From Pseudomonas sp. S09G 359 (GTDB lineage: Bacteria > Pseudomonadota > Gammaproteobacteria > Pseudomonadales > Pseudomonadaceae): a DNA stretch of 64,000 nucleotides. Of the stretch, positions 11,758-24,848 are shown in pieces. The translations under genes and the position numbers were made by a program. The DNA lies in contig NZ_CP025263.1 of assembly GCF_002843605.1 (NCBI RefSeq), forward strand, positions 874,501-938,500, read 5' to 3'. Positions within the stretch are counted from its first letter, which is position 1. Every line of letters starts with the position of its first letter. A model generated the notes under the pieces. It made no database searches, had not been told where the DNA came from, and saw nothing but the letters and a program-made list of their open reading frames with translations.

Positions 11758-12544
11758 GGACGCGCCGATCGGTGTGTTCGATTCCGGCGTCGGCGGGTTG
11801 TCGGTGCTGGACGAAATCCAGCAACTGTTGCCCCACGAATCCCTGCTGTATGTGGCCGATTGCGGGCACATCCCCTACGGCGAGAAAACGCCCGCGTTCA
11901 TTCTTGAGCGCTCGCGGCGGGTTGCCGCGTTCTTTCGCGAACAGGGCGCCAAGGCGTTTGTGATTGCCTGCAACACCGCGACCGTCGCGGCGGTTGCGGA
12001 CTTGCGCCAGGACTACCCCGACTGGCCGCTGGTAGGCATGGAGCCCGCCGTCAAACCCGCGGCTGCCGCCACGCGCAGCGGTGTGGTGGGCGTGCTCGCC
12101 ACTACCGGCACCCTGCAAAGCGCTAAATTCGCCGCGCTGCTGGACCGCTTCGCCACCGATGTGCGGGTGATTACCCAGCCATGCCCGGGCCTGGTGGAAC
12201 TGATTGAAACCGGTGACCTCAACAGCGCCGCTCTGCACCAGCTGTTGCAGGGCTATATCGAACCGCTGCTCAGCGCCGGCTGCGACACCATCATCCTCGG
12301 TTGCACCCACTATCCCTTCCTCAAGCCACTGCTGGCGCATATGCTGCCCCCCAGCATCATCCTGATCGATACCGGCGCCGCTGTGGCGCGCCAACTCAAG
12401 CGGTTGCTGGGTGAGCGCGATCTGCTGGCCGTCGGTGAGCCTGAACCTGCACAGTTCTGGACCAGTGGCGATGTGTATCACCTCAGAAATATCCTACCGA
12501 CACTATGGAAACATCACGGAGTTGTGCGAAGCTTCGGCTCGTGA
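11750..12544 (+). CDS. murI: Glutamate racemase
   Basis: Makes D-glutamate for peptidoglycan. 264 residues from the ATG at 11750; an upstream in-frame GTG at 11738 would add four residues. The two catalytic cysteines are Cys74 in [12 protein letters not shown] and one near 185 in [13 protein letters not shown]; the substrate Asp11-Ser12 are in GVFDSGVGG. It overlaps the moeB stop by eight bases. Confidence 0.95.
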
Positions 12545-12645
12545 AAAATTCGTGAAATGTCGCTGAACTTCTGACTCTGCGTCAGCTTCTATAGCGAGAT
12601 AGTTTGTACAAAACCAACTAACTTCGTTCGGAAAGGATGTTTCTT

Positions 12646-13164
12646 ATGAAGCGCTTGTTCTGTTTGGCTGCGATTGCGGCCGCTGTGGTGGGACACTCTT
12701 TTTCGGCCCAGGCCGCCGGCCTGGAAATGGGTGTGGGGAGCACCAGCGATTCGACCCTGACCTACCGTCTGGGGCTGAACTCGAATTGGGATAAAAGCTG
12801 GTGGCAGAGCGACACCGGTCGATTGACCGGTTATTGGAGCGGCGCCTACACCTACTGGGACGGCGACAAGCGCGCGAGCGTCAGCAGCCTGTCGTTCTCG
12901 CCGGTGTTTGTGTATGAGTTTGCTGGCGAGTCGGTCAAGCCGTACATCGAGGCCGGTATCGGTGTGGCGGTGTTCTCCCGCACCAAGGTCGAAGACAACA
13001 ACATCGGCCAGGCCTTCCAGTTCGAAGACCGCCTGGGCTTTGGCCTGCGCTTCAACGGTGGGCATGAAGTGGGCATACGCGCCATGCACTATTCCAACGC
13101 CGGCATCAGCAGCAATAACGATGGGGTAGAGAGTTACGCGGTGCACTACACGTTGCCACTGTAA
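12646..13164 (+). CDS. pagL: Lipid A 3-O-deacylase (PagL family)
   Basis: Outer-membrane beta-barrel enzyme that removes the 3-O acyl chain of lipid A. 172 residues; the signal peptide ends near SAQAAG. The catalytic His and Ser of the family are visible in MHYSNAGIS near the C-terminus, followed by a conserved Glu in GVESYAV. The chain ends with the aromatic strand of an outer-membrane barrel. I chose the ATG at 12646 over 12637 because GGAAAGG is well placed only for the second. It follows murI by 101 bp, the same order as in P. aeruginosa. Confidence 0.9.
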   Translation: MKRLFCLAAIAAAVVGHSFSAQAAGLEMGVGSTSDSTLTYRLGLNSNWDKSWWQSDTGRLTGYWSGAYTYWDGDKRASVSSLSFSPVFVYEFAGESVKPYIEAGIGVAVFSRTKVEDNNIGQAFQFEDRLGFGLRFNGGHEVGIRAMHYSNAGISSNNDGVESYAVHYTLPL

Positions 13165-13174
13165 GCAACTTCCC

Positions 13175-13741
13175 TGTGGGAGGGGGCAAGTCGAATCGTC
13201 GCACCGCCCCTCCCACATTTGAATTCCATCAGATTCAGAATCAGCGATACGCCGTAGCCAGACTCACTCATGTGGCGAGCGGGCTTGCCCGCGTTGGGCT
13301 GCGAAGCGGCCCTGAAACCATTCACCGCAGTTCTTACTGAAACACCGGGTCGTGTGGATTGGCGCCGCTTCGCGCCCCAACGCGGGCAAGCCCGCTCGCC
13401 ACAAAAGCCTGATGGTCACATAAATCCCCTGTGGGAGGGGGCTTGCCCCCGATAGCGGTGTGTCAGCCAAGCATTTACTAGCGGACACACTGCAATCGGG
13501 GGCAAGCGCCCTCCCACATTTGAATTTCATCGGATTCAGAATCAGCGATACGCCGTAGCCAGGCTCACTTATGTGGCGAGCGGGCTTGCCCGCGTTGGGG
13601 TGCGAAGCAGCCCTAAAACCATTCACCGCAGTTCTTACTGAAACAACGGGTCGTGTGGATTGGGGCCGCTTCGCGCCCCAACGCGGGCAAGCCCGCTCGC
13701 CACAAAGGCCCGATGGTCACATAGGTACTTCAATCGGCTTT
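13175..13741. repeat. Composite REP/REPIN array A
   Basis: A gene-free 567-bp region made of nested inverted repeats. In order: a hairpin with GTGGGAGGGGGC ends (13175-13217); a paired GTGGCGAGCGGGCTTGCCCGC element (13271-13403); a paired GTGGGAGGGGGCTTGCCCCC element (13430-13518); and a second GTGGCGAGCGGGC pair (13572-13704). Linkers repeat the 17-mer TCAGCGATACGCCGTAG at 13241, 13542 and 13742, the last being the real 3' end of the adjacent ykgJ-like gene. Near copies of the whole arrangement occur in opposite orientation at 33.4-34.2 kb. The open frames here are products of the palindromes. Confidence 0.9.
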
Positions 13742-14047
13742 TCAGCGATACGCCGTAGCAATCCCCTGGCGTTCGTCAATGCACTCCGGTGCGCCCATCT
13801 CGAATTCCCGGCAGATCAGCGGCCGGCGCTCGTAGATCGTGCACATCATGGTGTCGCGATCCAGCGCCGCGCACCAGCCGTCGTCCAGGCGCAGCATTAC
13901 TTCGCCGCCCCAATCGTCGGTGTCGATGTAGCGTTCCGGCACGCCGGTGTCGGTGATCAGCATCACTTCCAGCTGGCAGCAGCAGGCCGCGCACGTCGAG
14001 CAGGTGACGGCGGGTTCGGTGATCTGGGTGTGGGGGATGTTGGTCAT
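13742..14047 (-). CDS. YkgJ-family cysteine-cluster protein
   Basis: 101 residues. The N-terminal cluster CSTCAACCCQLE (residues 16-25) plus later Cys in DGWCAALD, MMCTIY, LICREFE and PECIDE form the CxxCxxCC cysteine pattern of the YkgJ family, thought to bind zinc or an Fe-S cluster; function unknown. It lies 54 bp after the DUF2878 gene on the same strand and may be the last gene of that long operon. Its final codons (IATAYR-stop) lie at the edge of REPIN array A, and a diverged copy of its last 22 codons occurs at 33.8 kb. Confidence 0.85.
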   Translation of the reverse strand: MTNIPHTQITEPAVTCSTCAACCCQLEVMLITDTGVPERYIDTDDWGGEVMLRLDDGWCAALDRDTMMCTIYERRPLICREFEMGAPECIDERQGIATAYR

Positions 14048-14101
14048 AGGCGCGCAGTGTAAGGCAAGCGGGTGATACGCGTGTGAATGCTCTGACGGGC
14101 G

Positions 14102-14593
14102 TCAGTGCCCAAGCTGATCGGCGACCCAATGCAGCAGCGGAAACAACAGGGCCCAGAGCACGGCCAGGCCGATCATGCTTGGCGCTGTGCCGTAGCCGAA
14201 ACTGACCCCCGCCAACTGGCTGCCCGCGTAATACGACAACGGCCCGCCCAGCGCGCCCAGCAGGCTGGCGCGCCACCAGGGGCTTGCACTCCAGGCCAGG
14301 CAATGGCGCAAGGTCGTGGCAAGCAGCGCCCACAACATGATCAGCCAAAGCGGGATCAGCGGCCCCGGCATGCTGAAGTGAAACACACCGAAGGTCCTCA
14401 GTGAGGTGTCGACGACCGTCCCCAGCAACGTCACGGCCAGGATCACCTGGCCCTCCTTGCTCCATGCACTGAGCCACAGCAGATGGACTGCCAGTACCGC
14501 CACCCCCACCAGCAACCAGCGGCTGTTGCCTCCCAGCACGCAGGCAAACCAACCGCACTGGAACAGCGCGGCATTGGCGAGGTTCTTAAGCAC
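14102..14593 (-). CDS. DUF2878 inner-membrane protein
   Basis: 163 residues, almost entirely hydrophobic, with about five membrane-spanning segments separated by short loops rich in Trp, Gly and Pro. This pattern and the PLIPLWLIMLWALLATTL segment match DUF2878, a family usually found with CFA-synthase-like and DUF1365 genes. Biochemical function unknown. It overlaps the CFA-family gene by eight bases and is the last or next-to-last gene of the light-type operon. Confidence 0.8.
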   Translation of the reverse strand: MLKNLANAALFQCGWFACVLGGNSRWLLVGVAVLAVHLLWLSAWSKEGQVILAVTLLGTVVDTSLRTFGVFHFSMPGPLIPLWLIMLWALLATTLRHCLAWSASPWWRASLLGALGGPLSYYAGSQLAGVSFGYGTAPSMIGLAVLWALLFPLLHWVADQLGH

Positions 14594-15857
14594 TGAAGCG
14601 CCCGAGCAGCGGCGGGTTGATCGCCGAGGGCTTGGCCAGCAGCAATTGCGCGGTGCCGATGGTGCGCTCCATAAAGCCGCCCTCGCAGTAGCACAGGTAA
14701 AACTCCCACAGTCGCAGGAAATATTCGTCGTAGCCCAGTTCCGTCAAACGGCCATGGGCGCGGCGAAAATTCTCATGCCACAGGCGCAAGGTCCGCGCGT
14801 AATGCAGGCCGAAATCCTCCATGTGCAGCAGGTTCATGTCGGTGTCGCGGCTGACGATCTGCAGCATGTTCTGCACGCAGGGCAGGGCTCCACCGGGGAA
14901 AATGTAGCGCTGGATGAAGTCGACGCTGTTCTTGGCTTGCTCGAAACGCTGGTCGCGAATGGTGATGGCTTGCAGCAGCATCAGGCCGTCGCGCTTGAGC
15001 AGGTGCGCGCATTGCTTGAAGTAGGTGGGCAGGAAGCGATGGCCCACGGCCTCGATCATCTCGATCGACACCAGCTTGTCGTACTCGCCGGTCAGGTCGC
15101 GGTAATCCTGCAGCAACAGGGTGACCTGCCCCTCTAAACCCAGGGCCTCGATGCGCTTTTCGGTGTAGGCAAACTGCTCTTTGGAGAGGGTCGTGGTGGT
15201 GACCTTGCAGCCGTAGTGCTGCGCCGCGTACAGCGCCATGCTGCCCCAGCCGGTGCCGATTTCCAGCAGGTGGTCGGTAGGCTTGAGAGCGAGTTTCTGG
15301 CAGATGCGTTCGAGCTTGTTCAGCTGCGCCTGTTCCAGGCTGTCGTCGGGCGTCAGAAATTGCGCGGCCGAATACATCATGGTGGGGTCGAGGAATTCTT
15401 CGAACAGGTCATTGCCCAGGTCGTAGTGGGCGGCGATGTTTTTCTGCGAGCCCTTGCGCGTATTGCGGTTGAGCCAATGCAGGCCTTGGGTGAACGGCCG
15501 CGCCAAGCGCGCCAAGCCACCCTCCATCGCATCGAGTACGTCGAGGTTGCTGACCATCACGCGCACCACGGCGGTCAGGTCCGGGCTGCTCCAATAGCCA
15601 TGGATAAACGCCTCGCCTGCGCCGATTGAACCGTTGGCGGCCACCAGGCCCCACACCGCCGGGTCGAGGATCTGGATCTCCCCCAGCAGGTGCGCTTCCC
15701 GTGCGCCGAAGACTTGGCGTTCGCCCTCCTCAATCACCACCAGTTGGCCGTGGCGCAGTTGGCTGAGTTGGCGCAGCACGGCTTTGCGCAACAGCGCCGT
15801 GGTCACGCCGTTGACATTCAGGCGGTTGGCCTTGACCGATAAGCTAGGGGATTTCAT
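14586..15857 (-). CDS. CFA-synthase-family SAM-dependent lipid methyltransferase
   Basis: 423 residues from the ATG at 15857, giving MKSPSLSVKANRL. The SAM site is LLEIGTGWGSMALYAAQ, and the core resembles cyclopropane-fatty-acyl-phospholipid synthase (YDLGNDLFEEFLDPTMMYS, FPGGALPCV, FYLCYCEGGF). Compared with the E. coli enzyme as I remember it, the active-site Cys of GNDLFSC is Glu here and the His of LLHTIG is Gln (LLQAIT); both help hold the bicarbonate base in true synthases. The C-terminal catalytic Cys and the Glu of MIEAVG remain. I infer it may methylate or otherwise modify unsaturated acyl chains without making a cyclopropane. Neighbours are a flavoprotein and a DUF1365 protein. Confidence 0.85.
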   Translation of the reverse strand: MKSPSLSVKANRLNVNGVTTALLRKAVLRQLSQLRHGQLVVIEEGERQVFGAREAHLLGEIQILDPAVWGLVAANGSIGAGEAFIHGYWSSPDLTAVVRVMVSNLDVLDAMEGGLARLARPFTQGLHWLNRNTRKGSQKNIAAHYDLGNDLFEEFLDPTMMYSAAQFLTPDDSLEQAQLNKLERICQKLALKPTDHLLEIGTGWGSMALYAAQHYGCKVTTTTLSKEQFAYTEKRIEALGLEGQVTLLLQDYRDLTGEYDKLVSIEMIEAVGHRFLPTYFKQCAHLLKRDGLMLLQAITIRDQRFEQAKNSVDFIQRYIFPGGALPCVQNMLQIVSRDTDMNLLHMEDFGLHYARTLRLWHENFRRAHGRLTELGYDEYFLRLWEFYLCYCEGGFMERTIGTAQLLLAKPSAINPPLLGRFSA

Positions 15858-16653
15858 GGCGGCGATCCTTGGTATACCCGACTGCAGTACGAGAGGCGCC
15901 ATCGGCGGCTCGGTGGGAAAAAATCGGTGTGCGTTTAAGCAGCAGGCGCAGGGCCTGCCAGTAGATCGCCAGGCAGGTCTTGGCGGTCATCCACGGAAAG
16001 CGCCACAGGTAGCGATGCAGGCTGGCGCGGTTGAGCGCTTCCTTTTGCAGGCTGAGGGTGGCGTCGAAGACTTTATCTTCGCCCTGCCAGTCGGCCATAT
16101 GTACGCCGAGCCGGGCGGCGGGCGGGCTGAAGCTCATGCGGTATTCCAGGTCGCGGGGCAAAAACGGCGACACATGAAACGCCTTGGCCACGGCGAAGTG
16201 CTGGTGCTCATCCGCGCCCAGGGCCTGGGCCGGCAGCACATAGTGGTAGCGCTCGCGCCATGGGGTGTTGGTCACTTCACACAGGATCGCGGCCAGTTGC
16301 CCGTCGGCCTCGAAACAGTAGAAGAAACTCACCGGGTTAAAAGCCAGGCCCCAACTGCGGGCCTGGGTCAGCAGGCAGATAACGCCCTCGGGGGTACGCC
16401 CCAGGGCCTTGCCGACTTCCTGGCGCACGGCGTCGGTGAGGCTCATGCCATGGCGCGTCAATTTACGCAGGTAGTCCTGCTGGCGAAAACCGAAGGGCGC
16501 CAGTCGGCTCGCGCCGGCCAGGGGCGATAGCCCAAGCACTTGGTCTTGCTCGCTGAGGTCCAGGTACAGCAGGCCGATGCGGTAGCGAAAGGCGTGGGCC
16601 TTGGGCGCAAACCGCCGGTGGGCGATCCAGCCGCTGTACAGGGCGCTGTTCAC
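15844..16653 (-). CDS. DUF1365-family protein
   Basis: 269 residues from a GTG whose last bases overlap the TGA of the upstream FAD gene (GTGA), which decides the start. Motifs typical of DUF1365 are present: YSGWIAHRRFAPKAHAFRY at the N-terminus, FNPVSFFYCF in the middle and KAFHVSPFLP later. The function is unknown, but it consistently accompanies an amine-oxidase-like flavoprotein and a CFA-family methyltransferase, so a role in the same lipid modification is likely. The end overlaps the methyltransferase start by 14 bp. Confidence 0.87.
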   Translation of the reverse strand: MNSALYSGWIAHRRFAPKAHAFRYRIGLLYLDLSEQDQVLGLSPLAGASRLAPFGFRQQDYLRKLTRHGMSLTDAVRQEVGKALGRTPEGVICLLTQARSWGLAFNPVSFFYCFEADGQLAAILCEVTNTPWRERYHYVLPAQALGADEHQHFAVAKAFHVSPFLPRDLEYRMSFSPPAARLGVHMADWQGEDKVFDATLSLQKEALNRASLHRYLWRFPWMTAKTCLAIYWQALRLLLKRTPIFSHRAADGASRTAVGYTKDRRHEIP

Positions 16654-17897
16654 AGGGTCTCCCCAAACGCCTGGGCCACGCGCAGCGCGCTGACCACGCC
16701 GTCTTCGTGAAAGCCGTTGGCCCAGTAGGCGCCGCAGTAAAAGCTGTTGCGGGCGCCGCACAACTCTTCCCAGCGATTTTGCGCCGCCACCGCCGCCAGG
16801 CTGTATTGCGGATGGGCGTAGGTGTAGCGCGCGAGCACCTTCAGCGGGTTGATCATCGACGTCTGGTTCAGGCTGACACAAAAGGTGGTAGCGCTGTCGA
16901 TGCCTTGCAGGATGTTCATGTCGTAGGTGACGGCGGCCTGTGTCTGCACATCGCCACTCAGCCGGTAATTCCAGCTGGCCCACGCCAGCTTGCGGTCCGG
17001 CAGCAGGCGGGTGTCGGTGTGCAGCACCACGTCGTTGTCGGCGTAGGGCAGCGCGCCGAGGATCTCCTGTTCGGCCTGGCTCGGGTCGGCGAGCAGCGCC
17101 AATGCCTGGTCGCTGTGGCAGGCGAACACTACTTTGTCGAAGGCTTCGGTGCCGGCAGCGCTGTGGATAACCACGCCCTCGGCGTCGCGCTCAACCCCGT
17201 GCACCGGGCAGTTGAGGCGGATCTGCTGGCGAAAGCTGCGGGTCAGCGGTTCTATATAGCTGCTTGAACCGCCCTTGATTACGCACCATTGCGGCCGGTT
17301 GTTCACCGACAGCAAGCCGTGGTTCTTGAAGAAACGCACAAAGAATTGCAGCGGGAAACCGAGCATGTCCGCCAGCGACATCGACCAGATCGCCGCGCCC
17401 ATCGGCACGATGTAATGGCGGATAAACCGTGGGCCGTAGCCGCCGGCGACGAGGTAGTCGCCCAGGGTCATCTCGGCGCTGATGCGTTGCTCCTGCAGAT
17501 CCAGCGGCGCCTGGCGGTTGAAGCGCAGGATGTCACGCAACATGCCCCAGAAACCCGGCGACAGGATATTGCGGCGTTGGGCAAACAGGCTGTTGAGGTT
17601 ATTGCCGTTGTACTCGAAACCTTCGTTCTGGTCACACACCGAGAAGCTCATTTCGGTGGGTTTGAATTTCACACCGATCTGCCCCAGCAGGCGGATGAAA
17701 TTGGGGTAGGTCCAGTCGTTGAACACGATGAAACCGGTGTCCACCGCGTAGTGTTGCCCCTCGACCGTCACGTTGACCGTATGGGTATGCCCGCCGATAC
17801 GGTCGCCGGCCTCGAACAGGGTGATGTCGTGGCTACGGCTCAGCAGGTAGGCGCTGGTCAGCCCGGCGATGCCGCTGCCGATGATGGCGATCTTCAC
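16650..17897 (-). CDS. FAD-dependent amine-oxidase-like oxidoreductase
   Basis: 415 residues. It has an N-terminal dinucleotide fold MKIAIIGSGIAGLTSAYLL, the FAD motif FEAGDRIGGHTHTV, and AVDTGFIVFNDWTYPNF typical of the NAD(P)-binding/amine-oxidase family related to phytoene desaturases. In this cluster it probably desaturates or oxidises an acyl chain with the CFA-family enzyme; bacterial furan-fatty-acid pathways use such a pair. The substrate is an inference. ATGA overlaps join it to the SDR gene upstream and the DUF1365 gene downstream. Confidence 0.85.
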   Translation of the reverse strand: MKIAIIGSGIAGLTSAYLLSRSHDITLFEAGDRIGGHTHTVNVTVEGQHYAVDTGFIVFNDWTYPNFIRLLGQIGVKFKPTEMSFSVCDQNEGFEYNGNNLNSLFAQRRNILSPGFWGMLRDILRFNRQAPLDLQEQRISAEMTLGDYLVAGGYGPRFIRHYIVPMGAAIWSMSLADMLGFPLQFFVRFFKNHGLLSVNNRPQWCVIKGGSSSYIEPLTRSFRQQIRLNCPVHGVERDAEGVVIHSAAGTEAFDKVVFACHSDQALALLADPSQAEQEILGALPYADNDVVLHTDTRLLPDRKLAWASWNYRLSGDVQTQAAVTYDMNILQGIDSATTFCVSLNQTSMINPLKVLARYTYAHPQYSLAAVAAQNRWEELCGARNSFYCGAYWANGFHEDGVVSALRVAQAFGETL

Positions 17898-18676
17898 AGG
17901 TCGTCCTTCTGCGGTGGCGGGCTGCGCAACATGCGTTTGCCGATGATCAGTTGCGCACGGTTAGGCAGTTTGGACAGCGGCCACAAGGTGGCGATAAACA
18001 GCGCAGGGAAGGCGATTTCCAGTGGGCGTTTGCCCAGCTTGGCGAATATATGCCGCGCGGCCTTGTCAGCCGACCAGCTCAACGGCATCGGGAAGTCATT
18101 GCGCTCGGTCAGCGGCGTGTCGACAAAGCCCGGGCTGATCACCGTGACGTCGATATTTTCCGGCGACAGGCTGATGCGCAGGGCTTCAAATAGGTAACGC
18201 AGGCCGGCCTTGGACGCGCCATAGGCTTCGGCGCGAGGCATCGGCAGGTAGGTCACGGCGCTGGCCACGCCCACCAGGTGCGGGGTGTTGCCGGCGCGCA
18301 GCAGCGGCAGCGCGGCTTCGATGCAATAGCTGCTCGCCAGCAGGTTGGTGCGCACCACGTGCTCGACGATGGAGGCGTCAAACTGCCGGGCGTCGACATA
18401 TTCACAGGTGCCGGCGTTGAGGATCACCGTGTCGACCGCGCCCCAGGCCGCGCCGATCTGTTCGCCGATCTCGCGCACGGTCTGGCTGTTGGTGAGGTCG
18501 CCGGCCACCACCAGCACTTGGCCCGGGTACCGGTGGGCGAGGGCTTCCAGTGGGCCTTTGCTGCGCGAACTGAGGGCCACATGGGCGCCGCTGTTGAGCA
18601 GCTCCACGGCCAGTGAGGCGCCAATGCCACTGCTGGCGCCGGTCAGCCAATATCGGCGGGGCGGTGTAAGGCTCAT
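17894..18676 (-). CDS. Short-chain dehydrogenase/reductase
   Basis: 260 residues from the ATG at 18676, which overlaps the stop of the upstream gene (ATGA). The NAD(P) motif TGASSGIGASLAVEL is near residues 12-26, NAG is in VILNAGTCEYV, and the catalytic Tyr-x-x-x-Lys is in AYGASKAGL. The Ser is in GVASAV. A C-terminal hydrophobic stretch (IAFPALFIATLWPL) suggests membrane association. The substrate is unknown; its place in the operon suggests lipid or isoprenoid oxidation. Confidence 0.87.
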   Translation of the reverse strand: MSLTPPRRYWLTGASSGIGASLAVELLNSGAHVALSSRSKGPLEALAHRYPGQVLVVAGDLTNSQTVREIGEQIGAAWGAVDTVILNAGTCEYVDARQFDASIVEHVVRTNLLASSYCIEAALPLLRAGNTPHLVGVASAVTYLPMPRAEAYGASKAGLRYLFEALRISLSPENIDVTVISPGFVDTPLTERNDFPMPLSWSADKAARHIFAKLGKRPLEIAFPALFIATLWPLSKLPNRAQLIIGKRMLRSPPPQKDDL

Positions 18677-19095
18677 CCCATTCTCCTTTTCAGCCAGCCG
18701 ACCACGCTGCCCAATACGGGCAAGTGTTCGTAGAGCATGGCGCCGGCGTCGAAATAATCGCGATGGCGGTAGACCTTGTCGCGCCACAGCAGGTGCGAGC
18801 AGCCTTCCACTCGGATCACTTGGCCGCGGTTCAGCCGCGGGTGGCAAAAACTCATTTTCCAGCGCAGGTAGCCTTCGCCCTCGGCCACTTGGTCGAAGCC
18901 GTGAAAATCGAAGCGCAGCTGGCTGACGTTGCTGTACAGCTCGGCGAAGTAACGCCGTATTTCCGGTAACCCGTGGACTTCATGCAGCGGGTCGGTGAAG
19001 ACGATGTCCTGACTGTAGAGGCTGTCGAGCCGGTGCAGGTTGTGCTTGTCCAGCGTGGCAAAGGCCTGGGCGAACCGGCGCAGGAAGTCACTCAT
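18673..19095 (-). CDS. NTF2-like (SnoaL-type) protein
   Basis: 140 residues with the NTF2-like cone pattern: FAQAFATLDKHNLHRLDSLYSQDIVFTDP, then HEVHGLPEIRRYFAELY, and the later strands WKMSFCHPRLN and GCSHLLW. Such proteins are small isomerases, hydrolases or binding domains; no catalytic residues can be assigned here. It overlaps photolyase by eight bases and the SDR gene by four, so it is part of the light-type operon. Confidence 0.8.
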   Translation of the reverse strand: MSDFLRRFAQAFATLDKHNLHRLDSLYSQDIVFTDPLHEVHGLPEIRRYFAELYSNVSQLRFDFHGFDQVAEGEGYLRWKMSFCHPRLNRGQVIRVEGCSHLLWRDKVYRHRDYFDAGAMLYEHLPVLGSVVGWLKRRMG

Positions 19096-20530
19096 GTTCG
19101 GCGACCTCCTGGCGTGCAGGCAGGTTGCGAAAGGCCGCCAGGGCGCGCTCGCGCGATTGCTTGAGGTCGACTATCGAGCGCGGGTAATCCGCCACGCCGA
19201 ACAGGCCACCGGCGGCTTCGGGGTTGTGCACTTCTTTTTTATTCAGCGCGGCCAATTCCGGCAGCCAGCGCTTGATGAACACGCCTTCGCCGTCGAATTT
19301 TTCCGACTGGCTCAACGGGCTGAAAATCCGGAAGTACGGCGCCGAGTCGGTGCCGGTGGACGAACTCCACTGCCAGCCGCCGTTGTTGGCCGCCAGGTCG
19401 CCGTCGATCAGGTGACGCATGAAGAAACGCTCGCCTTCACGCCAGTCGATCAACAGGTTTTTGGTCAGGAACATCGCCACCACCATCCGCAGGCGGTTGT
19501 GCATCCAGCCGGTTTCCAGCAGCTGGCGCATGGCCGCGTCGATGATCGGCAGGCCGGTGCGGGCCTGCTGCCAGGCGGCGAGGTCCTTGGGCGCGTTACG
19601 CCAGGCCAGCGCTTCGGTCTCGGGGCGGAATGCGCGGTGCCGCGAAACCCGTGGGTAGCCGACCAGAATGTGTTTGTAGAACTCACGCCAGAGCAATTCG
19701 TTGATCCAGGTGATGGCGCCGATATCGCCACTTTCGAACTCGCCCCTGTTGGTTAGCAGCGCAGCATGCAGGCACTGACGCGGCGAAACCACGCCGGCTG
19801 CCAGGTAGGCCGAGAGCTGGCTGGTGCCGGGTTTGGCCGGGAAGTCGCGCTCGTCCTTGTAATAGCTGATCTGCTGGTCGGCGAAGGCGTCGAGCCGGCG
19901 CCGGGCTTCGTCTTCACCGGCGGGCCAGAGGGCGCGCAAGGTGTCGCTGGGCGGCTCGAAACCCTCAACCTGGTCGGGGATCGGGTCGCTTTTCACATCC
20001 AGCGCGGCCTGGGCTTTTGGCGTCGCGACCAGGCGCGGCAGTGCGCTGTGCAAGCGGCTGTAGCAGACCTTGCGGAACTGGCTGAACACCTGGAAGTAGG
20101 TGCCGGTTTTGGTCAGCACGCTGCCCGGTTGGAAAAACAGCTGGTCCAGGTAGCTGTGGAAGGTCACGTCCTGGGCTTCCAGGGCTTCGGCCACCGCCGC
20201 ATCGCGACGGCTTTCATGCACGCCATATTCTTCGTTGACGTGCACCGAGGCCACCGACAGCTCGCGGCACAATTGGCCGAGTACGGCGGGCGCCTGGTCC
20301 CAGGTCGCGGCATGGCGAATCAGCAAGGGAATATTCAGTTCGCCCAGGGCCCGGCTCAGGTGCTGCAGGTTGCGCAACCAGAAATCCACTTTGCACGGTG
20401 CATCGTCATGGGCCAGCCATTGCTCTGGGGTGATGAGGTACACGGCCGCCACCGGGCCTCGCTGGCAGGCGGCAGCCAGGGCGGTGTTGTCGTGTAGGCG
20501 CAGGTCGGTGCGCAGCCAGATCAAGTGCAT
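19088..20530 (-). CDS. phrB: Deoxyribodipyrimidine photo-lyase (class I CPD photolyase)
   Basis: Light-driven repair of cyclobutane pyrimidine dimers. 480 residues: N-terminal alpha/beta antenna domain (MHLIWLRTDLRLHDNTAL) and C-terminal helical FAD domain with WINELLWREFYKHIL, GLPIIDAAMRQL, MHNRLRMVVAMFL and GGWQWSSSTGTDSAPYFRIF, the class I signature. It begins exactly where the MerR-type regulator ends, so both come from one mRNA, which fits light-induced expression. Confidence 0.95.
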   Translation of the reverse strand: MHLIWLRTDLRLHDNTALAAACQRGPVAAVYLITPEQWLAHDDAPCKVDFWLRNLQHLSRALGELNIPLLIRHAATWDQAPAVLGQLCRELSVASVHVNEEYGVHESRRDAAVAEALEAQDVTFHSYLDQLFFQPGSVLTKTGTYFQVFSQFRKVCYSRLHSALPRLVATPKAQAALDVKSDPIPDQVEGFEPPSDTLRALWPAGEDEARRRLDAFADQQISYYKDERDFPAKPGTSQLSAYLAAGVVSPRQCLHAALLTNRGEFESGDIGAITWINELLWREFYKHILVGYPRVSRHRAFRPETEALAWRNAPKDLAAWQQARTGLPIIDAAMRQLLETGWMHNRLRMVVAMFLTKNLLIDWREGERFFMRHLIDGDLAANNGGWQWSSSTGTDSAPYFRIFSPLSQSEKFDGEGVFIKRWLPELAALNKKEVHNPEAAGGLFGVADYPRSIVDLKQSRERALAAFRNLPARQEVAEHE

Positions 20531-21460
20531 TTAAATAAGTCCACGCTGGATCAGTATCTGATGGGCCGACAATGGGTCTTCGGCCACGAACAATTCCGCG
20601 GTGTCACGGGTGAATACGGCCAGCTCCGCCTGGTGGATGCATACCGTTGGTCCGACGATCAACTTTGGGCAACCCACGCCGGTCAAAAGTTTTACCAGTG
20701 CCGACAAGTGGAGGGCCTTGCTCGAATACAGCAGCACCGCGCGCGGCTTCAGGTGCTCCACCGCCAGGGCCAGTTCGCCGACAGGCAACGGCCAGTCGAA
20801 GACCTCCACCGGGCAATCGGCGCTGCTGGCCAACCAGGCGCTGAGCCACAGGTGCGGCTCCAGGGGCAGGTCGGACTGGTTGACCAGCAGCAGCGGCGCG
20901 CCGTGCAATTGGCGATTGTTGTGATAAATGCGCGCGCCAAATTTGCTGCGCAGCCAGGACAGGAAAAACACCCGTTCCATCTGCGCGCCAAATTGCCCCT
21001 GCCATTTCAGTTCCAGCTCTTGCAGCAGCGGCAGCAGCAGTTGCTCGCAGAGGGTGCGCGGCGGGTACAGCGCCATGGCCTGGTTGAAGGCGTCGTCGAC
21101 CCGGCGTTCGTTCAGCTCGCTGATGGCGTTGACCAGGGTTTGCCGCAGGGCATGCCATTCGTTCTCGACCGCATCGGGCAGCGCCTGGGCCGAGTCGATC
21201 AGGCCTTTGACCTGGCTGACCGGCACGCCGCGATTGAGCCAGGTGAGGATGGTGTGGATGCGTTGCACATGCTCGGCGCTGAACAGCCGATGGCCCTTGG
21301 GCGTGCGCTGGGGCACGATCAGGCCGTAGCGGCGTTCCCAGGCGCGCAGGGTCACGGCGTTGACGCCGGTTTGGCGCGCCACTTCGCGAATCGGCAACCA
21401 GCCATCTTCGAAGGCTTGGGCGAGGTCTTCGCCGGGTTGGTCTTGCAGGGCAGCTTTCAT
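20531..21460 (-). CDS. MerR-family regulator, class II LitR/CarH-like
   Basis: 309 residues. The N-terminal MerR HTH reads LPIREVARQTGVNAVTLRAWERRYGL (about 22-47) and continues PKGHRLFSAEHV. The C-terminal half has the two-part layout of a cobalamin-binding CarH/LitR sensor: a four-helix part near 95-170, then a Rossmann-like part. The usual adenosylcobalamin contacts (WxxxEH and E/DxHxxG) are not recognisable; the nearest match is EPHLWL. This resembles the class II LitR proteins of Pseudomonas, which respond to light without binding B12 themselves. It lies inside the photolyase operon, with matching operator motifs in front. Confidence 0.85.
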   Translation of the reverse strand: MKAALQDQPGEDLAQAFEDGWLPIREVARQTGVNAVTLRAWERRYGLIVPQRTPKGHRLFSAEHVQRIHTILTWLNRGVPVSQVKGLIDSAQALPDAVENEWHALRQTLVNAISELNERRVDDAFNQAMALYPPRTLCEQLLLPLLQELELKWQGQFGAQMERVFFLSWLRSKFGARIYHNNRQLHGAPLLLVNQSDLPLEPHLWLSAWLASSADCPVEVFDWPLPVGELALAVEHLKPRAVLLYSSKALHLSALVKLLTGVGCPKLIVGPTVCIHQAELAVFTRDTAELFVAEDPLSAHQILIQRGLI

Positions 21461-21463
21461 CGG

Positions 21464-22426
21464 TCAGATCGCATTACGTAGGCTGAGGTTTTCCGGGTGC
21501 GGTTGCAGGTAAGCCTGTTGCGCGATGTAGCGGTCCGGGTGTTGGCGAAAGTGGTGTTTGAGCAACGTCAGTGGCACCACCAGCGGCACGATGCCGTGGC
21601 GGTATTGGCCGATGACGGTTTGCATTTCCTGTTTGTCGTCGGCGCTGATGGCCTGCTTGAGGTAGCCGCTGATGTGTTGCAGCACATTGGTGTGGGTGCC
21701 ACGGGTGGCGCACTTGGTCAGGCCGGTCATCAGTTCGGTGAAGTAGCAGGCGGCCAGTTCGTCGAGGTTGGTGCCCTTGCCCATGCTGCCCAGCCGATGG
21801 CCGAGGCTTTTGTAGTGCACGGGGCTGTGCGCCATCAGCAGGTATTTGTAGCGCGCGTGAAAGGCCAGCAAGCGATGGCGGGTCAGGCCTTCGCCCAGCA
21901 GTTGTTGCCAGCTGGCATACACGAAGACGCGGGTCAGGAAGTTTTCCCGCAACACCGGGTCATTCAGCCGACCGTCTTCTTCCACCGGCAGGTTGGGGTG
22001 GCGCGCGCAAAACGCCTGGGCGTAGATGCCGCGCCCGCCGCCATCCACCGGCGTGCCGTTGGCGCGGTACACCTTGACCCGCTCCAGGCCGCACGACGGC
22101 GACTTCTGCATAAAAATATAACCGCACAAGTCGGTGTGTTCTGCAGCCATCTGTTGACCGTAGTCGTCCAGCGGTTGGGTCACATTCAGCTCGCGGTTCA
22201 CCGTGCCCAAGGCTTGCGGGTGGGCGGGGTCGCCCACCAGGCGGATGGGTTCGCGGGGGATGCCCAGGCCGATGGCAACCTCGGGGCACAGCGGCACAAA
22301 GTCGAAATAGTCCGCGAGGGTCTGGCTGCACAGCAGCGATTGTTTATGCCCACCGTTGAAGCGAACGTTCTCGCCGAGCAGGCAGGCGCTGATGGCGATC
22401 TTGGGCTTGGTGCCGGTGCTGGACAT
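21464..22426 (-). CDS. DUF523 + DUF1722 protein (YbgA-type fusion)
   Basis: 320 residues from the ATG at 22426, with AGAGG seven bases upstream; a TTG two codons earlier has poorer spacing. Residues 1 to about 160 are DUF523 (ISACLLGENVRFNGGHK, VPLCPEVAIGLGIPR, SPSCGLERVKVY, with Cys pairs). The rest is DUF1722/YbgA (LLAFHARYKYLLMAHSP). Homologues are regularly next to photolyase genes. DUF523 is related to 2-thiouracil desulfurases, and a link to repair of thiolated or damaged bases has been suggested. First gene of the nine-gene operon. Confidence 0.87.
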   Translation of the reverse strand: MSSTGTKPKIAISACLLGENVRFNGGHKQSLLCSQTLADYFDFVPLCPEVAIGLGIPREPIRLVGDPAHPQALGTVNRELNVTQPLDDYGQQMAAEHTDLCGYIFMQKSPSCGLERVKVYRANGTPVDGGGRGIYAQAFCARHPNLPVEEDGRLNDPVLRENFLTRVFVYASWQQLLGEGLTRHRLLAFHARYKYLLMAHSPVHYKSLGHRLGSMGKGTNLDELAACYFTELMTGLTKCATRGTHTNVLQHISGYLKQAISADDKQEMQTVIGQYRHGIVPLVVPLTLLKHHFRQHPDRYIAQQAYLQPHPENLSLRNAI

Positions 22427-22448
22427 GAGCAAACCTCTGCGAGAATCC

Positions 22449-22472
22449 TGTACAAGATGGAAAGCTTGTACA
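22449..22472. promoter_or_regulatory. Putative LitR operator 1 (TGTACA-N12-TGTACA)
   Basis: A perfect TGTACA pair with 12-bp spacing, downstream of the -10 element and 23 bp before the first gene's ATG. It matches the T(G/A)TACA-N12-TGTA(C/T)A motif I recall for class II LitR. Confidence 0.7.
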
Positions 22473-22482
22473 ACTAAATCTC

Positions 22483-22510
22483 ATCATAGGTTTGATGCTG
22501 TACAAGTCAA
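22483..22510 (-). promoter_or_regulatory. Sigma-70-type promoter of the light-type operon
   Basis: On the minus strand, TTGACT (22505-22510) is followed by a 16-bp spacer and TATGAT (22483-22488). The -35 lies wholly inside the spacer of operator 2, so a bound repressor would block it. Confidence 0.7.
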
Positions 22511-22522
22511 ATATTTTGTACA
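22499..22522. promoter_or_regulatory. Putative LitR operator 2 (TGTACA-N12-TGTACA)
   Basis: A second perfect TGTACA-N12-TGTACA, exactly 50 bp from operator 1, overlapping the -35 of the operon promoter. It also lies just past the end of the divergently placed Trp-rich gene's coding sequence. Confidence 0.72.
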
Positions 22523-22538
22523 AGTATTTGCGAGGGGG

Positions 22539-23767
<1,229 letters not shown>

Positions 23768-23786
23768 CTACGCCGACACCAATAGC

Positions 23787-23810
23787 TGTACAATATTGTT
23801 TTTTGGTATA
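23787..23810. promoter_or_regulatory. Putative LitR operator 3 (TGTACA-N12-GGTATA)
   Basis: One perfect TGTACA and, 12 bp further, GGTATA, one base off the allowed TGTATA. It lies 50 bp upstream of the flavoprotein ATG and 139 bp upstream of the divergent TIGR01777 gene. Confidence 0.55.
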
Positions 23811-23948
23811 AGTTTTGGCGTACCTGTTCTTACGGCGTGACCTATGGTTAAAGCTGAGGCTTGAACAAATGACACGCCCGATTACAAATCATCCCTCTAT
23901 ACAAAATAGACCAGTGATGGGCGGCGAACGTTACATGAGGAAGATCCC

Positions 23949-24848
23949 ATGCATATTTTGCTGACCGGCGGTACCGGATTGATCGGTCGCCAACTCTGCC
24001 GACACTGGCTCGCCCAGGGCCACCGACTGACTGTATGGAGCCGCCACCCTGAAGAAGTCGCGTCCTTGTGCGGCGCCGAGGTGCTGGGCGTGGCGCGCCT
24101 GGAAGAGGTGATCGGTAGCGTCGACGCGGTGGTCAATCTGGCCGGCGCTCCCATCGCCGACCGCCCCTGGACCCACAAGCGCAAGGCCTTGTTGTGGAGC
24201 AGCCGCATCAGCCTTACCGAAACCCTGCTGGCATGGCTGGAACGCAGGGAGCAAAAGCCGGCGGTGTTGATTTCCGGTTCCGCAGTGGGCTGGTACGGCG
24301 ACGGCGGTGAGCGCGAATTGACCGAAGCCAGCGGCCCGGTGCAGGACGATTTCCCCAGCCAACTGTGTATCGCCTGGGAAGAAACCGCCCAGCGCGCCGA
24401 AGCCTTGGGCATTCGCGTGGTGCTGGTGCGTACCGGCCTGGTGCTGGCCGCCGAGGGCGGCTTTTTGTCGCGGCTGTTGCTGCCGTTCAAACTCGCGCTG
24501 GGCGGGCCTATCGGCAATGGTCGGCAGTGGATGCCGTGGGTACACATAAAGGATCAAATCGGCCTGATTGATTTTCTTCTGCACAAGGAGGACGCCAGCG
24601 GTCCTTATAATGCTTGCGCGCCGCACCCGGTGCGTAACCGCGAGTTCGCCAAGACACTCGGCCAGGTACTGCACCGCCCGGCCTTTATGCCGATGCCGGC
24701 CTTTGCGTTGAAGGTGGGCCTGGGCGAGTTGTCCGGCCTGTTGCTGGGCGGGCAGAAGGCGCTGCCCGAGCGCTTGCTGGCCGCCGGTTTCACTTTCCAG
24801 TTCACTGAGTTGCGCGCGGCCTTGGACGACTTATCCAGCCGCCTCTAG
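23949..24848 (+). CDS. TIGR01777-family NAD-dependent epimerase/dehydratase-like protein
   Basis: 299 residues. The N-terminal Rossmann motif [16 protein letters not shown], then [17 protein letters not shown] and the [12 protein letters not shown] stretch, are the signature of the YfcH/TIGR01777 extended SDR family. A DUF1731 segment ending in [15 protein letters not shown] forms the C-terminus. Reaction unknown. It is 14 bp upstream of hemH and probably cotranscribed with it, which is common in Pseudomonas. Confidence 0.9.

Follow-up and report, generated by a model that had tools for sequence, protein, structure and literature searches.

A nine-gene operon of Pseudomonas sp. S09G 359 that probably joins tRNA, DNA and furan-lipid protection under a blue-light LOV-LitR switch

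Nine open reading frames (ORFs), all on the minus strand, occupy positions 14102..22426 of the 64,000-nucleotide stretch of the genome of Pseudomonas sp. S09G 359 analysed here (the window; contig NZ_CP025263.1, positions 874,501 to 938,500). The genome comprises a single 6.77-Mb contig, on which positions outside the window are given with the prefix C1. With gene starts placed at codons that overlap or almost touch the preceding stop, the junctions were gaps of 0 or 3 bp or else overlaps of 4 to 14 bp, as claimed in a preliminary description of the window, the domain calls of which likewise agreed with Pfam.

In order of transcription, the first gene (21464..22426) encodes a 2-thiouracil desulfurase domain (DUF523, TudS) fused to DUF1722 and, judged by these domains and by seven residues matching RudS_KT, a putative RudS, a tRNA 4-thiouridine desulfidase. 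After a gap of 3 bp follows the gene of a MerR regulator (20531..21460) of the class II LitR kind (PplR1/PmlR1 type) and, with no gap, that of PhrB, a deoxyribodipyrimidine photolyase scoring above the cut-off of NF007955 (19088..20530). The photolyase gene overlaps by 8 bp the gene of an NTF2/SnoaL-like protein, a probable enzyme by its conserved residues (18673..19095; PF12680), which overlaps by 4 bp the gene of a short-chain dehydrogenase/reductase (SDR) with its tetrad kept (17894..18676; PF00106). An overlap of 4 bp leads to a candidate UfaD-type FAD-dependent desaturase of the flavin amine oxidase type, assigned by PF01593 and by linkage to UfaO (16650..17897), and another of 4 bp, for which the start was placed at a GTG, to a UfaO-type DUF1365 protein and putative furan-ring-forming oxygenase (15844..16653; PF07103). 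A 14-bp overlap joins the latter to a UfaM-type S-adenosylmethionine-dependent methyltransferase of the cyclopropane fatty acid synthase (CFA) superfamily (14586..15857; PF02353, CMAS), in which Gln replaces a bicarbonate-ligand His. The last gene, overlapping ufaM by 8 bp, encodes a hydrophobic DUF2878 protein (14102..14593; PF11086) with six predicted helices and an AlphaFold model of low confidence (mean pLDDT, 59.6). The best relatives of the DUF1365 and DUF2878 proteins that carry organism names are from Pseudomonas. No Rfam family reached its gathering score within 12500-24200.

The region before rudS was compared with the Pseudomonas mendocina promoter P6650, for which hexamers, spacing, two boxes and a DNase I footprint of PmlR2, a LitR-type protein, have been described (PMC9758184, cited, as are the other papers, from excerpts of the text). 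A sigma-70-type promoter, TTGACT-N16-TATGAT, lies at 22483..22510 on the minus strand, with hexamers and spacing identical to those of P6650. Two exact TGTACA-N12-TGTACA boxes of the LitR/PplR kind, also on the minus strand, are placed as in P6650: one at 22499..22522 overlaps the −35 hexamer (site 1), and the other at 22449..22472 (site 2) falls between the ATG and the transcription start that is predicted from P6650. Within 13600-24100 two promoter-like sites were found, both on the minus strand, one matching 10 of 12 positions at 22510-22483 before the first gene and one matching 9 of 12 inside ufaM; because shuffled versions of this sequence gave 1.8 such sites on average, the hexamers alone prove nothing. 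The paired boxes, unlike the hexamers, do establish the promoter match: exact TRTACA-N12-TGTAYA sites occur only four times in the whole 6.77-Mb genome, two of them at the operon, 50 bp apart.

In 40 genomes of the genus, including that of S09G 359, exact boxes numbered 92 and were present in 36 genomes, versus 3 for a reversed-pattern control. When 29 genus loci around one exact box each were inspected, 18 carried a gene of the set, 17 of them having RudS, LitR, Phr, LOV or a renalase-like gene as neighbor and one (L274) having DUF2878 only. The other 11 carried none of the query genes, which speaks against a purely operon-bound box; several of these boxes have near-identical GC-rich spacers in different genomes and are probably coding sequence. 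In 17 chosen operon-type loci, the 300 nucleotides upstream of RudS, or of the NTF2-like gene if RudS was not found, were scanned. All 13 loci from the genus or family of S09G 359 had a box with at most one mismatch in this interval. The four farther loci did not: L122 had a box with two mismatches, and L102, L111 and L115 had none, the stretch scanned in L102 and L111 being that before the NTF2-like gene and not that before the first gene. Outside the operon, a one-mismatch box (TGTACA-N12-GGTATA) resembling the P. mendocina folM site was seen upstream at 23787-23810, flanked by a renalase-like FAD gene and an epimerase-like gene in divergent orientation (names assigned by eye). Another exact box, at C1:3210272-3210295 (L022:7273-7296), stands about 108 bp before the gene of a methyl-accepting chemotaxis protein. 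The surrounding stretch has lower GC3 and contains a transposase-like ORF (identified by eye), and the box may reflect chance or a light-controlled chemoreceptor.

The operon LitR consists of a MerR helix-turn-helix and a B12-binding_2 bundle only, the domain composition of class II LitR, with no second B12-binding domain by Pfam and no [DE]xHxxG motif (DxHxxG type, which we take to be the B12-binding pattern) in its sequence. A second LitR, 38% identical to it, is encoded at C1:5710598. One 201-amino-acid ORF away, at C1:5709407, lies the gene of a 159-amino-acid PAS/LOV protein that has the core DCRFLQ; no other PAS match of the genome search was in so short a reading frame. The gene is followed by a FolM-type SDR gene and then by FolE- and FolX-type genes, the latter two recognised by eye from translations. 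This is the arrangement of the pmlR2 neighborhood of P. mendocina, including the one ORF between regulator and LOV gene; at the level of genes, the search thus found both a class II LitR and a candidate short-LOV partner encoded near a LitR paralog. Because the genome holds this second LitR near the short-LOV gene, the short-LOV protein is likely the sensor and LitR its repressor, and the class II LitR itself is probably not a light sensor. Light is sensed in P. mendocina by a separate short-LOV protein, PmSB-LOV, whose lit form binds PmlR2 and stops its DNA binding (PMC9758184).

The nine genes match in order the pmlR1 operon of P. mendocina NBRC 14162 (PME6650-PME6610) and the pplR1 region of P. 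putida KT2440, the published order being PME6650-pmlR1-phrB-PME6635-SDR-FAD-PME6620-ufaM-PME6610, of which the four hypothetical genes were matched by position only (PMC9758184). The P. mendocina genes likely form one nine-gene unit, and after 6 h of light phrB was up 27.8-fold and ufaM 25.0-fold (PMC9758184). The LitR paralog, the short-LOV gene and the folM-folE-folX-type genes elsewhere in the genome extend the likeness to the pmlR1 and pplR1 systems, whereas a PF04244 (cryB-type) gene was not found in this genome. The system is therefore already known, the S09G 359 operon being a Pseudomonas version of a described blue-light operon, and what the preliminary description had proposed, an operon for light response that contains a class II LitR-like regulator and couples DNA repair to membrane-lipid change, is in print for P. 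mendocina (PMC9758184).

For the first gene, P. putida PP_0741 and other TudS-DUF1722 fusions have been reported to strip 4-thiouridine from tRNA, with cluster and catalytic residues named, and an operon with PhrB, LitR and RudS has been noted as LitR controlled (PMC11417400). The protein in the window is the same fusion and carries all seven residues, three Cys plus Glu, Arg and two Ser, with C15, C47, C112, E49, R58, S109 and S111 matching RudS_KT at a constant offset of 2; the remaining differences are ordinary divergence. In 29 aligned RudS sequences (that of the window and those of 28 loci), C15, C47, E49 and R58 were present in 28 with one gap, S109 and C112 were present in all 29, and position 111 was Ser in 22 and Thr in 7.

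For the lipid genes, the Rhodobacter sphaeroides assignments are UfaM for RSP2144, UfaD for RSP1091 and UfaO, a DUF1365 protein, for RSP1090, and conversion of the 11-methyl-10,12-diene to the furan with O2 was reported for RSP1090 and RPA2570 (PMC7380195). The same three families are present here, and the candidate UfaO combines the DUF1365 domain with linkage to UfaD. In R. sphaeroides, ufaM lies apart and control is by RpoE-ChrR, whereas in the window all three genes share one operon (R. sphaeroides data from a table in PMC5507510). The best P. syringae matches of RSP_2144, RSP_1091 and RSP_1090 (39, 39 and 35% identity) lie in one locus with phrB (PMC5507510), and UfaM from a Halomonas ufaD-ufaO-ufaM cluster gave 11-methyloctadec-12-enoate in Escherichia coli (PMC12089945). 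It is very probable that the operon directs the synthesis of furan fatty acids that quench singlet oxygen.

Taken together, we consider it probable (about 0.87) that the nine genes form one blue-light-switched operon with LitR repression in the dark, release by LOV, and RudS, photolyase and furan lipid as output. In the dark, class II LitR proteins on the two promoter-covering boxes would stop transcription; under blue light, a flavin adduct would form in the short-LOV protein encoded elsewhere in the genome, which would then bind LitR and take it off the DNA. RudS would remove the near-UV-absorbing sulfur from tRNA 4-thiouridine, so that tRNA would no longer be photo-crosslinked, photolyase would repair pyrimidine dimers, and UfaM, UfaD and UfaO would convert the cis-vaccenate chains in phospholipids to a methylated, furan-containing fatty acid scavenging singlet oxygen. 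The NTF2-like, SDR and DUF2878 proteins are placed in the furan-lipid module by linkage. What the preliminary description had taken for steps of no assigned chemistry would thus mostly be a known three-layer sunlight kit, for tRNA, DNA and membrane, under a LOV-LitR switch: DUF523/DUF1722 corresponds to RudS (PMC11417400) and DUF1365 to UfaO (PMC7380195), and its statement still holds for the three proteins NTF2-like, SDR and DUF2878. The order of the genes, their promoter, boxes, domains and catalytic residues, and the LOV and LitR genes were seen in this genome itself; light induction, the LOV-LitR-DNA switch and the chemistry of RudS, UfaM, UfaD and UfaO were demonstrated in homologs and would hold here by analogy. 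Some points weigh against this reading. One LitR paralog and one short-LOV candidate were found here, versus the three LitR and two LOV proteins that P. putida reportedly has, and the wiring may differ. Furthermore, the passages of the literature consulted do not report furan fatty acids from a Pseudomonas.

The preliminary description had pointed to the RpoE/ChrR route, in which an ECF sigma factor (of an ECF11 RpoE-ChrR singlet-oxygen regulon) freed from ChrR would transcribe the operon. Homologs of UfaD, UfaO, SDR, UfaM and PhrB are indeed core members of the RpoE-ChrR regulon, and P. syringae DC3000 has matching gene content in PSPTO_1123-PSPTO_1114, as far as the genes are named in the passages of PMC5507510, with an ECF sigma factor using a promoter that lies within the gene preceding phrB (PMC5507510). 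However, ChrR was not found in the S09G 359 genome, the best TIGR02451 match scoring 16 bits versus a cut-off of 124.5. A regular expression modelled on the P. syringae promoters in Table 3 of PMC5507510 (GATC-N15-19-CGTA) had no match within 400 bases before any gene of the nine, although a degenerate motif could be missed, and TGATC-N16-18-CGTA had none in the 64-kb window. RpoE-ChrR control is thus disfavored for this genome and very unlikely. Less credible still is that LitR senses light itself via bound adenosylcobalamin, like class I LitR/CarH. The operon LitR keeps the B12-binding_2 match and gave a weak CarH-family match (76.5 bits versus a 400-bit cut-off), but it has the class II and not the class I composition described above, and B12 photosensing is disfavored on these domain grounds; in addition, the photoreceptor in P. 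mendocina is the LOV protein (PMC9758184). Of the preliminary LitR/CarH-type assignment, the class II LitR-like part therefore stands, and light sensing by LitR is improbable.

A further alternative accepts the light switch and concerns its output: the CFA-like enzyme might make ordinary cyclopropane fatty acids, the operon stiffening membranes and producing no furans. In its favor, the best solved relatives of the enzyme are cyclopropane synthases, and a Halomonas ufaM overexpression strain also had cyclic fatty acids (PMC12089945). In E. coli cyclopropane synthase the bicarbonate ligands are Glu239, His266 and Tyr317 (PMC11387697). The window protein keeps Glu239 and Tyr317 but has Gln in place of His266. 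It also has Ala at the position of E. coli Cys139. In 97 UfaM-type sequences (that of the window and those of 96 loci), the Glu and Tyr ligands were kept in all, His266 was Gln in 96, and the His adjoining the Glu was Ala in 96, the exception (L171) having His at both positions; at the Cys139 site, 73 sequences had Ser, 22 had Ala, one had Gly and one had Cys. Moreover, a separate CMAS protein, at C1:6711262, keeps the Cys, Glu-His and His motifs (YSCGYF, MFEHVG and NHGIT, read by eye), and genes for UfaD and UfaO accompany the CFA-like gene. An ordinary cyclopropane synthase is disfavored by the active-site residues and by the separate CMAS protein, and we hold this alternative to be quite improbable. 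The preliminary assignment to the CFA methyltransferase family was correct at the level of PF02353, and the residues argue that UfaM is probably not a plain cyclopropane synthase; judged from the alignment, the Gln at His266 may decide its product.

Beyond the known system, four details appear new as far as seen: the UfaM residue signature, the pairing of NTF2-like and SDR genes as a unit, the finding of DUF2878 almost only in genomes with DUF1365 (for these three no dedicated search for prior print was made) and a light box at DUF3833. In 299 genomes of the phylum, including that of S09G 359, DUF1365 was present in 130, DUF3833 in 95, DUF1722 in 85 and DUF2878 in 62. DUF1365 accompanied DUF2878 in 60 of 62 genomes (expected, 27), DUF3833 in 91 of 95 (expected, 41) and DUF1722 in 47 of 85 (expected, 37); these counts were made by eye from the listed genomes, and because the genomes are related, the P values should not be read literally. 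The surroundings of DUF1365, in stretches of 15 to 19 kb, were then compared in 100 of the 130 genomes, all 73 others of the class to which S09G 359 belongs and 27 of other classes (omitted were the window's own locus, two fragments and another 27 genomes from other classes); matches to broad families, SDR and MerR among them, were limited by score thresholds of our choice. Within 7 kb of UfaO, UfaD was found in all 100 loci and UfaM-type proteins in 96, including L171, which lacks the signature, followed by SDR (76), NTF2-like (61), Phr (40), DUF2878 (40), DUF3833 (37), RudS (26) and LitR (21).

Two modules appear to be joined under one switch in the operon: RudS-LitR-Phr and a furan-lipid module including NTF2-SDR. 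This view is drawn from two kinds of loci. In one same-genus locus (G127) and two same-family loci (G139 and G244), chosen for having DUF1722 without DUF1365, RudS-LitR-Phr was present with boxes and no Ufa genes were found within the stretch. Conversely, L117 and L127 have an NTF2-SDR-UfaD-UfaO-UfaM-DUF2878 run that is led by a LOV gene and has an exact box before the NTF2-like gene. Among relatives, L302, L303 and L304 have RudS-LitR-Phr and light boxes without Ufa genes in the stretch, a modular arrangement.

NTF2-like and SDR genes were both present in 59 of the 100 loci and in all 59 were on the same strand and at most 1.2 kb apart. The pair stood downstream and inverted in L084, L159 and L161 and downstream with the SDR first in several others; because it keeps together in such varied placements, it moves as a unit. 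The SDR residues N111, S139, Y152 and K156 were identical in 77 of 77 sequences, and D35, G42, W79, G98, D113 and D116 of the NTF2-like protein in 62 of 62; because the SDR tetrad and the three Asp and the Trp are invariant, both proteins look catalytic on sequence grounds. In R. sphaeroides, single deletions of RSP1087, RSP1088 or RSP1089 left fatty acids unchanged (PMC7380195), RSP1087 being an SDR (PMC5507510), a result that argues against an essential synthetic step but is compatible with redundancy or with a role once synthesis is complete. The NTF2-SDR unit might service used furan fatty acids, the ring-opened enedione being reduced and re-closed or otherwise detoxified, with DUF3833 and DUF2878 as envelope partners handling the lipid. 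We regard this proposal as unlikely, but if true, the furan lipid would be a renewable and not a one-shot quencher of singlet oxygen. A search of open-licence PMC papers (titles and the beginnings of abstracts) found no study of how bacteria might recycle furan fatty acids once these are oxidised. That NTF2-SDR travels with the furan-lipid genes, and that DUF2878 is nearly confined to DUF1365 genomes, are reasons to test these proteins. As a separate observation, Vibrio cholerae VC1123, a DUF2878 gene, is said to be annotated in the regulon of the MerR-family factor PhrR (PMC12971978), which points to a parallel MerR-controlled version of the gene set; a literature search for PhrR with photolyase and MerR returned nothing.

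Away from the operon, a DUF3833 gene at C1:1625878 (lipoprotein-like by eye) has an exact LitR box in front (C1:1626451-1626474; L021:4452-4475), one of the two exact sites that the genome has outside the operon. PSPTO_2515, annotated as a lipoprotein, is the ortholog of RSP_1088 and, in the passages of PMC5507510, the only one of the core genes, six in number apart from the sigma factor and ChrR, with no ECF binding at its locus. By its size, its lipoprotein character and the ufaD-ufaO-gap-DUF3833-SDR order in L182, the DUF3833 gene is likely the same gene as RSP_1088/PSPTO_2515. In the genus, 32 of 59 genomes had a DUF3833 match, and in 30 loci, including that of S09G 359, the 200 nucleotides upstream of the domain start were examined. 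An exact box was present in 6 and a box with at most one mismatch in 10, of which 8 sat 58 to 60 nucleotides before the domain start; the last 200 nucleotides of the same loci, a crude control, had no box even at two mismatches. Against a light box at DUF3833, 20 of the 30 loci had none at one mismatch or fewer in this interval, and no box was present in any of three loci from the same family but another genus. In a smaller set of six genus loci, an exact box was present in three and absent from two, and the sixth (L301), a broken copy, had no domain match. DUF3833, the orphan of the singlet-oxygen core regulon, thus carries a light box here and in a third of the genus loci examined.

At the 3′ end of the operon, 54 bp separate the end of the DUF2878 gene (14102) from the next minus-strand ORF (13742-14047); as no terminator-like site was called there, the transcript could extend beyond the nine genes. 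This ORF encodes a small, cysteine-rich, YkgJ-like protein (by eye) and may be cotranscribed. Within 13264-14062, short ORFs on both strands share strings such as WRAGLPALG and RGQARSP, which suggests intergenic palindromic repeats downstream of the operon.

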